This document shows, piece by piece, positions 40,465 to 47,294 of a stretch of 64,000 bases of DNA. Every line of letters begins with the position of its first letter. The stretch's first letter is position 1. A program made the translations under genes and the position numbers. Location of the stretch: contig NZ_QMHQ01000001.1 in NCBI RefSeq assembly GCF_003313325.1, forward strand, positions 620,001 through 684,000, read 5' to 3'. The DNA is from Pedobacter namyangjuensis (GTDB lineage: Bacteria; Bacteroidota; Bacteroidia; Sphingobacteriales; Sphingobacteriaceae). The notes beneath the pieces were generated by a model that saw only the letters and a program-made list of their open reading frames with translations, was not told the origin of the DNA and made no database searches.

Positions 40465-40720
40465 GATTGAGCGTAGGACGAATTATGTAGGTTTTTAATT
40501 CGGGTAAATATATTTACTGTTGTTAAAGATAAGTAAAAATGCCTTGTTAATAAATAACATAAAGATGCTGAAATAAATTTAGGATGACGGTCGAGTTCTA
40601 CGAATTTTACTTCGTAGCTTTCCGCTTATAATTCGGGGCTTTACCGTAGCAATTTTCTCGACTCAGATTGATAATTGTGCTGGTGTAGGGTTTGGTTTAT
40701 AGTATTGTAAAATGCCGTGA
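40465..40720. other. Non-coding gap upstream of the dispersed repeat
   Basis: The 40465-40883 gap (419 bp) has no credible gene. This first part is AT-rich and holds the small palindrome CTACGAA-N5-TTCGTAG (40598-40618) and, at 40612-40652, a TTTCCGC/GGGGCT segment similar in style to the dispersed repeat. Copy 3 of that repeat occupies 40721-40850. Confidence 0.4.
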
Positions 40721-40850
40721 TTTAAACCCGATTGTCGTGAAAATACTTTTTGCATCGCTGGCGTGAAGAATTGCTTCATCATGCTTTTGAGCAATGACGA
40801 ATTTTAGTAGAACAGCCACAAAAAGATTGTAACAGAAAGCGGGACTAACG
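40721..40850 (+). repeat. Dispersed intergenic repeat, copy 3
   Basis: It begins TTTAAACCCGATTG and ends GTAACAGAAAGCGGGACTAA, with a longer core than copies 1 and 2. It lies downstream of dapF (on the opposite strand) and holds no open frame. Confidence 0.55.
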
Positions 40851-44394: not shown

Positions 44395-46374
44395 ATGTCA
44401 GCAATAAATTCAAATATACCAGAGGGAGATTTAACCACCAAGTGGACGAAATACAAATCGTCTGTGCCCTTGGTTAACCCTTCAAATAAAAGAAGTTTAG
44501 AAGTAATTGTAGTAGGTTCTGGTTTAGCAGGTGCTTCGGCAGCAGCTACATTAGCAGAAATGGGCTACAAAGTTAAGTGCTTCTGTTTTCAGGATTCGCC
44601 ACGTAGAGCGCACTCTATTGCAGCTCAGGGTGGTATTAATGCAGCAAAAAATTATCAAAACGATGGTGATAGTACCTATCGTTTATTTTATGATACCATT
44701 AAAGGTGGCGATTACCGTGCTCGCGAAGCAAACGTACACCGTTTAGCAGAAGTAAGTGCAAACATTATCGATCAGTGTGTGGCGCAAGGTGTGCCATTGG
44801 CTCGTGAATATGGTGGTTTGTTGGATAATCGTTCATTTGGTGGTACGCAAGTTCAACGTACTTTTTATGCAGCTGGTCAAACTGGTCAGCAATTGTTGCT
44901 AGGTGCATATTCTGCTTTAGAGCGCCAAATTGGTATGGGTAAAGTAGAAATGTTTACCCGCCATGAGATGCTTGAAGTTGTTAAAATAGATGGTAAAGCT
45001 CGTGGTATTATTGCTCGTAACTTATTAACTGGCGAGTTAGAACGTCATTTCGGCCATGCCGTAGTATTGGGTACAGGTGGTTACGGAAACGTATTTTATC
45101 TTTCTACCAATGCAATGGGAAGTAACGTAACCGCAGCTTGGAAAGCGAATAAACAAGGCGCATTTTTTGCAAACCCTTGCTACACGCAAATTCACCCAAC
45201 CTGTATTCCGGTTTCTGGAGATCACCAATCTAAATTAACCCTAATGTCTGAATCGTTACGTAACGATGGACGTATCTGGGTGCCTAAAAAGAAAGATGAT
45301 ACGCGTAAAGCATCGGATATTCCGGAAGGTGAAAGAGATTATTATTTAGAGCGTCGTTACCCTGCTTTTGGTAACTTAGTACCTCGTGATGTGGCTTCTC
45401 GTGCTGCAAAAGAAAGATGTGATGCGGGTTACGGTGTAGGTGCGTCTAAACTAGCGGTTTACCTGGATTTTAAAGCCAATACAGAACGTTACGGCAGAAT
45501 TGAAGCATCTAAAGCTGGTATCCACAATCCAGATAAAGAAACTTGTATGCGTTTAGGTACAGCCGTTGTTAAAGAAAAATATGGTAACCTGTTTGACATG
45601 TATGCGCAGATTACAGGAGAAAATCCTTACGAAACCCCAATGCGTATCTATCCAGCGGTACACTATACCATGGGTGGTTTATGGGTTGATTATAACTTGA
45701 TGACTTCTGTACCAGGTTTGTATTGTACAGGTGAGGCAAACTTCTCAGATCACGGTGCAAACCGTTTAGGTGCGTCTGCATTAATGCAAGGTTTGGCAGA
45801 TGGTTATTTTGTTCTTCCTTATACAATTGGAGCTTATCTATCTAAAGAAATTTCTGTAAAAGCAATTCCTACAGATCATCCGGCATTTGTTGAAGCTGAA
45901 GCTAGGGCAAAAGGAATTTTAGATCACTTTATCAATATTAAAGGAACTAAATCAGTAGACCATTTCCACAAAAAATTAGGTTTAATTATGTGGGAGAAAT
46001 GTGGTATGGCTCGTAATGCTGAAGGTCTAAAATCAGCAATTGCAGAAATACAACAATTAAAGAAAGATTTCTGGGCAGATGTTCGCGTACCAGGATCGGC
46101 AGATGAATATAACCCGGAGTTGGAAAAAGCTGGTCGCGTTGCGGATTTTATCGAGTTAGGCGAGTTGATGTGTATCGATGCGTTAAACCGTAACGAAAGC
46201 TGTGGCGGTCACTTCCGTGAAGAATACCAGACAGAAGAAGGTGAGGCTTTACGTGATGATGAAAACTATGCTTACGTAGCAGCTTGGGAAAACAAGGGTG
46301 ATGGAACTTTCGAACTTCACAAAGAAGAGTTGAAATTCGAGAATATTAAAATAGCACAAAGAAGTTATAAATAG
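44395..46374 (+). CDS. sdhA: Succinate dehydrogenase/fumarate reductase flavoprotein subunit
   Basis: 659 residues. FAD-binding [18 protein letters not shown] at about 42-59, the flavinylation-region motif [15 protein letters not shown], substrate-site segments HPTCIPVSG and the Arg/His-rich VPRDVASRA, and [12 protein letters not shown] near the late FAD site. It oxidises succinate to fumarate and covalently carries FAD. The length and motifs fit the Bacteroidota type B enzyme. It is co-transcribed with sdhC and sdhB. Confidence 0.96.
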
Positions 46375-46375
46375 A

Positions 46376-46490
46376 TGTGAGAGGGCAGATATGAGAAACT
46401 AGATTTGAGATACGAGGTAGGCAATCGCCTAAACTCTAAAGTCTCACATCTCACATCTCAGGTCTCAAATCTCAAGTCTCAAATCTCTAT
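46376..46490. repeat. Inverted heptamer arrays in the sdhA-sdhB spacer
   Basis: Left arm 46376-46417: six consecutive 7-bp units ending mostly in GAGA (TGTGAGA, TATGAGA and TTTGAGA are the clearest). Right arm 46442-46490: seven consecutive 7-bp units beginning TCTC (consensus TCTCAMR), the opposite polarity. Between them is the hairpin TAGGC-AATC-GCCTA (46418-46431). The arms can pair over about 40 bp with mismatches. The tract starts one base after the sdhA stop and ends four bases before the sdhB ATG. An upstream in-frame ATG at 46405 is only an extension through the repeat. Confidence 0.8.
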
Positions 46491-46494
46491 ACAA

Positions 46495-47265
46495 ATGAGT
46501 ACAGGAAATATGAACTTAACGCTAAAGGTTTGGCGTCAGAAAAATAGCAAAGACAGCGGTAAAATGGTAGACTATAAAGTGTCTGAAATTTCGCCTGATA
46601 TGTCTTTTTTAGAAATGTTCGATGTTTTAAACGAGGATTTGATTACCAAAGGCGATGACCCAATTGTATTTGACCACGACTGTAGAGAAGGTATCTGCGG
46701 TATGTGTTCGATGTTCATTAACGGTCGTCCGCATGGTCCTAAAGATGCGGTTACAACATGCCAATTGCATATGCGTTCTTTTAAAGATGGCGATACAATT
46801 GTAGTTGAACCTTGGAGAGCGAAAGCTTTTCCGGTAATTAAGGATTTAACAGTAGATAGATCGGCATTTGACCGTGTAATTGCTGCAGGTGGTTTCATCT
46901 CTGTAAATACAGGTAATGCGCAAGATGCAAATGCTTTGCCTATTCCAAAAGCACAAGCAGATGCTGCTTTCGAAGCGGCAGCTTGTATCGGCTGTGGTGC
47001 TTGTGTTGCAACTTGTAAAAATGCATCAGCTATGCTATTTGTATCGGCAAAAATTTCTCAGTTGGCTTTATTGCCACAAGGACAGCCGGAGCGTTACAAA
47101 CGTGTACAAAACATGGTAGCGCAAATGGATGCAGAAGGATTTGGTAACTGTACAAATACAGGTGCTTGCGAGGCAGAATGTCCTAAAGGGATTTCTTTAG
47201 AAAACATTGCTCGTATGAACAGAGACTTTGTAACCGCCAAATTCGTTAGCGAAGAGGAAGGATAA
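46495..47265 (+). CDS. sdhB: Succinate dehydrogenase/fumarate reductase iron-sulfur subunit
   Basis: ATG 46495 ([15 protein letters not shown]) gives 256 residues. A longer frame from 46405 would translate the heptamer array, which is not a protein. Cluster ligands: 2Fe-2S ([18 protein letters not shown]), 4Fe-4S ([11 protein letters not shown]) and 3Fe-4S ([15 protein letters not shown]). It passes electrons from the flavin to the quinone via haem b. It is the last gene of the operon. Confidence 0.95.
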
Positions 47266-47266
47266 T

Positions 47267-47294
47267 CAGTTTCCAGTTATCGGTTTTCAGTTTG
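47267..47294 (+). repeat. Heptamer tract after the sdhB stop
   Basis: Four consecutive 7-bp units, CAGTTTC, CAGTTAT, CGGTTTT and CAGTTTG, start one base after the TAA. The unit differs from those in the other sdh spacers. Confidence 0.65.

Follow-up and report, generated by a model that had tools for sequence, protein, structure and literature searches.

The window analysed here, a stretch of 64,000 nucleotides from Pedobacter namyangjuensis, carries sdhC, sdhA and sdhB (assigned with NCBIfam), and a 115-nt tract containing two opposed arrays of 7-nt units lies between the last two genes (Table 1). The units of the 5' arm read, in order, TGTGAGA, GGGCAGA, TATGAGA, AACTAGA, TTTGAGA and TACGAGG. 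They are followed by a short hairpin formed by TAGGC (46418-46422) and GCCTA (46427-46431). The 3' arm consists of TCTCACA, TCTCACA, TCTCAGG, TCTCAAA, TCTCAAG, TCTCAAA and TCTCTAT, after which ACAA leads to the sdhB ATG. The coordinates, register and unit counts of this tract in the original prediction, together with its spacings to the sdhA stop and the sdhB start, were confirmed from the sequence. The description of the left units as ending in GAGA applies to three of the six, the remaining ones ending in AGA or AGG. On the right, all seven TCTC units are in register, with the last one to two overlapping a probable native leader. The seventh unit and some of the sixth probably belong to this sdhB leader and not to the array, since AAATCTCTATACA (46481-46493) also lies 5' of sdhB in a close relative (L013) that has no TCTCA array.

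Table 1. Features of the sdhA-sdhB junction (positions within the window).
Feature	Coordinates	Strand	Basis and remarks
sdhA, upstream cistron	44395..46374	+	stop TAG 46372-46374; element begins one base past the stop
5' heptad arm, six diverged NNNTGAGA-like units	46376..46417	+	sequence; pairs with 3' arm in the fold
TAGGC/GCCTA apical hairpin	46418..46431	+	sequence, RNA fold
3' heptad arm, seven TCTCNNN units in register (TCTCANN class)	46442..46490	+	sequence, repeat scores
Probable native leader AAATCTCTATACAA before the sdhB start	46481..46494	+	spacer comparison; nearly the same in L013
sdhB, downstream cistron	46495..47265	+	ATG at 46495

With up to three mismatches allowed, TCTCANATCTCANATCTCA has eight matches in the window, every one within the tract (0.15 expected), and none of 100 shuffles reached this number. 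Tandem Repeats Finder also assigned the two top scores of the window, 64 and 63, to the 3' array. In the predicted RNA fold, both arms pair into one long imperfect stem (-39.3 kcal/mol, z -4.64; none of 200 shuffles equally stable), which bears out the long imperfect hairpin that had been proposed. Hiding of the sdhB start by this hairpin, also suggested earlier, is not indicated, because the AUG lies outside the long stem, with its G alone in a weak 3-bp helix. An ordinary terminator was set aside, as a T run is absent 3' of the stem. No ORF of the S23 family was found within the 115-nt tract, and Rfam returned no match for the tract at the gathering threshold. Elsewhere in the window, Rfam matched one tRNA and a Flavo-1 RNA (RF01705, positions 40720-40850, 45.3 bits with a gathering cut-off of 42). 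Immediately 3' of the sdhB stop, four further heptads were observed (TCAGTTT, CCAGTTA, TCGGTTT and TCAGTTT, 47266-47293). Their reverse complement is TAACTGA-like, and by eye they have no clear 3' arm; they are perhaps half of an element or a decayed one.

The same genome contains further tracts of this kind. Three in-phase TCTCANN units were identified at six junctions, all co-directional: sdhA-sdhB, fusA-rpsJ, atpA-atpG (with two hairpins), HlyD-AcrB, an ABC ATPase-permease pair and the region before an OsmC-like gene, where gene names other than sdh were read from translations. A scan blind to the heptamer, covering 464 kb (the window plus 400 kb sampled), detected nine period-7 inverted arrays, seven of them solo (without an ORF) and two around S23 genes, in a sample that is uneven, since the array was the reason for choosing the window and one arginine-operon stretch accounts for four of the nine hits; the remaining 380 kb held four arrays. 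Control periods 5, 6 and 8-13 gave 0, 3, 0, 4, 2, 3, 3 and 3 hits, respectively. By very rough extrapolation, the genome probably contains several dozen heptad hairpins. Five of the six solo hits examined outside the window lie between co-directional genes (for one, the left neighbour was not found), and the five sites are argB/argF-like, argE/proC-like, rpsB-tsf, trpE-trpG and before rpsH. The presence of like elements at fusA-rpsJ, atpA-atpG, HlyD-AcrB, rpsB-tsf and other unrelated junctions led us to reject regulation specific to the sdh genes, as originally proposed, as the main reading.

Among relatives, the TCTCANN pattern was present in 79 of 145 genus genomes with 1418 matches altogether, and the reversed pattern gave 13. 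To compare the sdh junction, 47 spacers with an SdhB identity of at least 88% and an ATG start were assembled; L078 alone failed the start rule, and 2 of 110 sdh loci lacked sdhA and were left out. As L077 and L084 are the same DNA as L041 and L019, respectively, the set comprises 45 distinct Pedobacter-like spacers, 20 shorter than 60 nt and 25 longer. In the 25 long spacers, lag-7 identity was 0.529 versus 0.279 in shuffles (z 25.8). Lags 14, 21 and 28 were also raised (z 19.2, 16.9 and 6.5), and all other lags between 1 and 30 stayed at or below z 2.3. The heptads themselves belong to the classes TCTCANN, TATCAAG/CTTGATA and TACTAAN or are CGCCAAA-like or unclear, and unit number varies within one class. 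The period is kept among relatives and the heptamer sequence is not, with both arms changing together as whole classes. A cis-acting intercistronic hairpin selected to set the sdhA:sdhB ratio or mRNA stability, the view taken in the original prediction, would account for the stable fold of the tract and for fold z-scores below -2 in 24 of the 25 long spacers. This is nevertheless very improbable, given that 20 of the 45 spacers are too short to hold a long tract and that the same kind of element occurs at many unrelated junctions.

The fusA-rpsJ and atpA-atpG junctions vary among relatives in the same way as sdhA-sdhB. Counted on a 30-genome atpA/atpG tree, with filled rows only and classes assigned by eye, the minimum number of class changes was 8 at sdh (16 genomes), 10 at rpsJ (19 genomes) and 9 at atpG (20 genomes); here length is the sole criterion for calling a junction filled (60 nt for sdh and atpG, 100 nt for rpsJ), and L082, L079 and L080 are counted as filled though their heptads look weak. 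Genomes G020 and G031 share 98.7% identity across the final 1000 nt of fusA and 95.6% on the rpsJ side, with the same right flank, and the element between these genes is TATCAAG in G020 and AAGGTNT in G031. At sdhA-sdhB, G020 carries a TATCAAG element and G011 a TCTCANN element, with sdhA 96.9% and sdhB 97.1% identical. From these alignments, whole elements look to have been exchanged between close relatives with their flanks intact. At fusA-rpsJ, no target-site duplication was seen by eye in the single comparison of G000 with G016. Pairing between the arms of one solo element was stronger than the mean with arms of other species in 24 of 25, 18 of 19 and 16 of 16 cases at the three junctions, the atpA-atpG test being confined to S23-positive genomes and to 16 spacers measuring 60-95 nt. 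The own 3' arm outranked every other partner in only 4, 6 and 5 cases, presumably because relatives share heptamer classes.

Genes of the S23 family (TIGR02436 / PF05635, 23S_rRNA_IVP) were detected in 90 of the 145 genus genomes, in none of 14 control genomes and in 223 of 296 genomes sampled from the phylum. In P. namyangjuensis, all six detected S23 genes lie between co-directional genes and inside inverted heptads, of six kinds as judged by eye. Two of these elements (L183 and L184, C1:175935-177821) occupy consecutive arginine-operon junctions, read as argC-argD and argD-argF, and have differing heptamers; several relatives carry S23 at like junctions. In another (L185, C23:571394-571714), the S23 gene lying between the heptad arms is interrupted by a stop codon and may be a copy in decay. 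Among 93 of 95 S23 loci that were parsed (L191 and L229 left out), which are the best-scoring part of a longer list and not a random sample and fall into nine neighbour-gene groups, the flanks had lag-7 z-scores of 16.7 upstream and 24.3 downstream, compared with -2.6 in 185 control stretches farther from S23 genes. In 72 of 88 S23 elements, the two arms paired more strongly with each other than the 5' arm did with 3' arms taken from other sites; in the remaining 16 they did not. The S23 coding sequences are under purifying selection, with a median pN/pS of 0.17 in 320 pairs and likewise in 68 different-site pairs. Across 29 S23 loci in the wider phylum, z-scores were 6.7 and 8.0 at lag 7, and 4.7 and 6.2 at lag 8. 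By eye, the S23 flanks of six loci from other Bacteroidota (L306, L308, L314, L327, L330 and L332) repeat with period 8, an octad variant. Period 7 as a universal feature is ruled out by the period 8 in part of these phylum-wide loci.

An S23 gene was also found at the sdh junction itself. In a Mucilaginibacter MAG (L135), the sdhA-sdhB spacer holds TCTCANN arms together with an S23 gene. The corresponding spacer of a Runella MAG (L113) contains an S23 gene with GTTANCN-like heptads, not TCTCANN, and its protein does not exceed 44% identity to any member of the Pedobacter S23 set. Beyond these two full ORFs, no decayed S23 was detected at E 0.01 in 91 spacers (51 sdh, 19 rpsJ and 21 atpG). In four elements with TCTCANN-type S23 (L220, L216, L221 and L222), a complete hairpin, not a single arm, was seen by eye on one side of the ORF, and L135 is alike.

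The relation between S23 protein and heptamer was analysed in 88 S23 elements from nine neighbour-gene groups, giving 3213 different-site pairs (5 of the 93 loci were dropped as too short). Sharing of arm 6-mers was 0.06-0.07 below 55% S23 identity, 0.086 at 55-65% and 0.20 above 65%. Pairs with marked sharing (at least 0.15) made up no more than 2.2% below 55% identity, 8% at 55-65% and 81-90% above 65%. The rank correlation between S23 identity and arm sharing is modest (0.127, reached by none of 1000 permutations), its low overall value reflecting that most S23 pairs are distant. These comparisons give good support to a coupling in which S23 clades have their own heptamers. The TCTCANN class of the tract corresponds to the arms of the MNNLKELKIWNK-like S23 clade. 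The S23 protein of L135 falls in the clade predicted from its own TCTCANN arms. Its identity to TCTCANN-armed Pedobacter S23 reaches 79%, with a median bit score of 188 against TCTCANN-armed proteins (n = 15, maximum 194) versus 102 against others (n = 73, maximum 158). When the term cognate is used for genomes whose S23 reaches 66% identity to a TCTCANN-armed query, the median number of TCTCANN matches is 27 in 21 cognate genomes, 7 in 69 other S23-positive genomes and 0 in 55 S23-negative genomes; these genomes are not independent, those with 66-69% identity are classed as cognate on the protein only, and two loci of the cognate set, L203 and L205 (G078 and G079), have weak TCTCA arms.

These patterns bear on a local origin of the tracts, in which slippage and palindrome-forming template switching would have produced them at each junction with no mobile element. 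In favour of it, slippage is common in tandem repeats, elements of one class differ in their number of units, and by eye the loops look site-specific. We nevertheless regard such an origin as quite improbable, given that a small set of heptamers turns up repeatedly, both at unrelated sites and beside S23 genes whose clade matches, and that whole elements appear exchanged with intact flanks in close relatives.

In the 145 genus genomes, S23 and TCTCANN arrays occur together in 78, the array alone in 1, S23 alone in 12 and neither in 54, so that 78 of the 79 TCTCANN-positive genomes have S23 (Fisher 9e-27). The sdh junction was filled in 17 of 19 S23-positive versus 0 of 11 S23-negative genomes, fusA-rpsJ in 19 of 21 versus 0 of 9, and atpA-atpG in 20 of 21 versus 1 of 9, the last being G026, where a heptad-like spacer was observed and S23 was not detected. 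Arrays without a detected S23 also occur in G112. The twelve S23-positive genomes without TCTCANN are expected if they hold other heptamer classes. On the 30-genome tree, genomes with and without S23 are separated by a single split. The correlation therefore counts as one contrast, and it was dropped as a main argument and as strong statistical proof.

Alternatively, the arrays could be part of a post-transcriptional regulon, kept as binding sites at which S23-family proteins act in trans on mRNA heptad hairpins and tune sdhB, rpsJ and atpG. The clade-specific heptamers, the position of arrays just 5' of start codons and the translational regulation proposed for TAACTGA repeats (PMC4679880) would agree with such a role. 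It appears unlikely, however, in view of the repeated change of heptamer class at one junction (at least the 8, 10 and 9 by-eye changes given above) and of the S23-negative genomes examined, which mostly have no such element at those junctions. Moreover, a cognate S23 was not found in P. namyangjuensis itself: no TCTCANN-type S23 was detected at E 1e-25 in the assembly, which is 97% complete, and none of the six S23 genes has TCTCANN arms.

We consider it likely that the tract is an ORF-less, or solo, member of a family of S23/IVS-like mobile hairpins in intercistronic mRNA. Its membership of the family is well supported by sequence comparison, through the dispersal of the elements, the conserved period with changing sequence, the exchange of whole elements, the S23 arms of the same class and the coupling of clade to heptamer. 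The arms of this putative family would be arrays of one heptamer and its reverse complement, intercistronic and dispersed. ORF-bearing members would carry an S23 gene (PF05635) between or beside such arms, and the family may represent the mRNA-operon counterpart of rRNA intervening sequences (IVS). The elements appear to settle directly behind a stop codon, ahead of the following start, and to be replaced as units. As to the manner of movement, and any effect on sdhB, we infer the following. The S23 protein would recognise its own heptad stem and help such hairpins to spread or be exchanged, perhaps in trans. Solo copies would be non-autonomous, mobilised in trans, or left after loss of the ORF, and the differing loops and absent S23 remnants do not decide between trans mobilisation and ORF loss. 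A hairpin placed just after a stop and just before a start may be nearly neutral, which would allow solo copies to persist. This low host cost is suggested by the 23S IVS, reported to be phenotypically silent and excised by RNase III (PMC4990558).

Several known systems resemble the tract in part. Pfam analysis of three S23 proteins returned only PF05635 and weak bAvd similarity, two of the three matching the bAvd-like family PF22296 (accessory to diversity-generating retroelements) below its cut-off. REP elements with RAYT transposases and MITEs are small palindromes that are believed to owe their mobility to a cognate protein acting in trans. Unlike these, the associated protein here is S23/IVP and no fixed interior sequence is apparent by eye; the loops of solo elements differ between sites, again by eye, unlike those of a simple MITE. 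A close counterpart is the 23S rRNA IVS with an S23p ORF in Coxiella burnetii and others, which has a hairpin, complementary ends, an S23-family ORF and, in some strains, ORF decay (PMC4990558). Two to three tandem heptamers lie just 5' of the S23p ORF in the Coxiella IVS (PMC4990558), an independent parallel. In contrast to the IVS, which lies in the 23S gene, usually at helix 9, 25 or 45, the tract lies between sdhA and sdhB, and elements of its kind occupy sites between protein genes, are often ORF-less and have many heptamer classes. Of the broader features of S23/IVS-type elements, the tract shows stem-forming inverted arms and the heptad class of an S23 clade and has no S23/IVP ORF inside; L135, from another genus, does have this ORF at the corresponding site, together with arms of the same class.

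The P6b stem of the Nostoc trnL intron is also made of paired heptads, Class I TDNGATT and Class II NNTGAGT, with the class replaced at a fixed site, and its Class II resembles NNTGAGA (PMC4476775). Unlike the tract, it lies in a group I intron, and the accessible part of that article does not mention an S23 gene (PMC4476775). TAACTGA direct repeats of Beggiatoaceae, Cyanobacteria and some Bacteroidetes likewise have period 7 and are intergenic, in one genome mostly just 5' of starts and in some cases before ribosomal protein genes (PMC4679880). They are described as direct repeats of one heptamer, in a text that lacks the terms S23 and four helix (PMC4679880). ORF-bearing and ORF-less rRNA insertions, together with scattered 23S_rRNA_IVP, are reported in CPR bacteria (PMC11270868), and the genes for guanylate kinase and a nicotinate-nucleotide adenylyltransferase of Flavobacterium columnare are separated by one for a 'four helix bundle protein' (PMC5524665). 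In published papers, mostly from outside subscription journals, we found no description of heptad hairpins linked to S23 and lying between mRNA cistrons.

More broadly, and only tentatively, S23/IVP four-helix proteins may be the recognition and mobility factors of phylum-wide, transposase-free mobile hairpins. Each clade would have its own 7-nt repeat (8-nt in some other Bacteroidota), core-operon junctions would be colonised and exchanged, and the 23S rRNA IVS would be merely the rRNA-inserted branch. The function and origin of rRNA IVS were still called unclear in 2016, more than 25 years after their discovery (PMC4990558). With the family described here, this question becomes directly testable, as it offers probably dozens of natural hairpin copies in the messenger operons of this genome, a predicted protein-to-heptamer code, and close genome pairs that differ by one swapped element. 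Intercistronic hairpins in Bacteroidota should be checked for membership of the S23/heptad family before they are read as gene-specific regulators.
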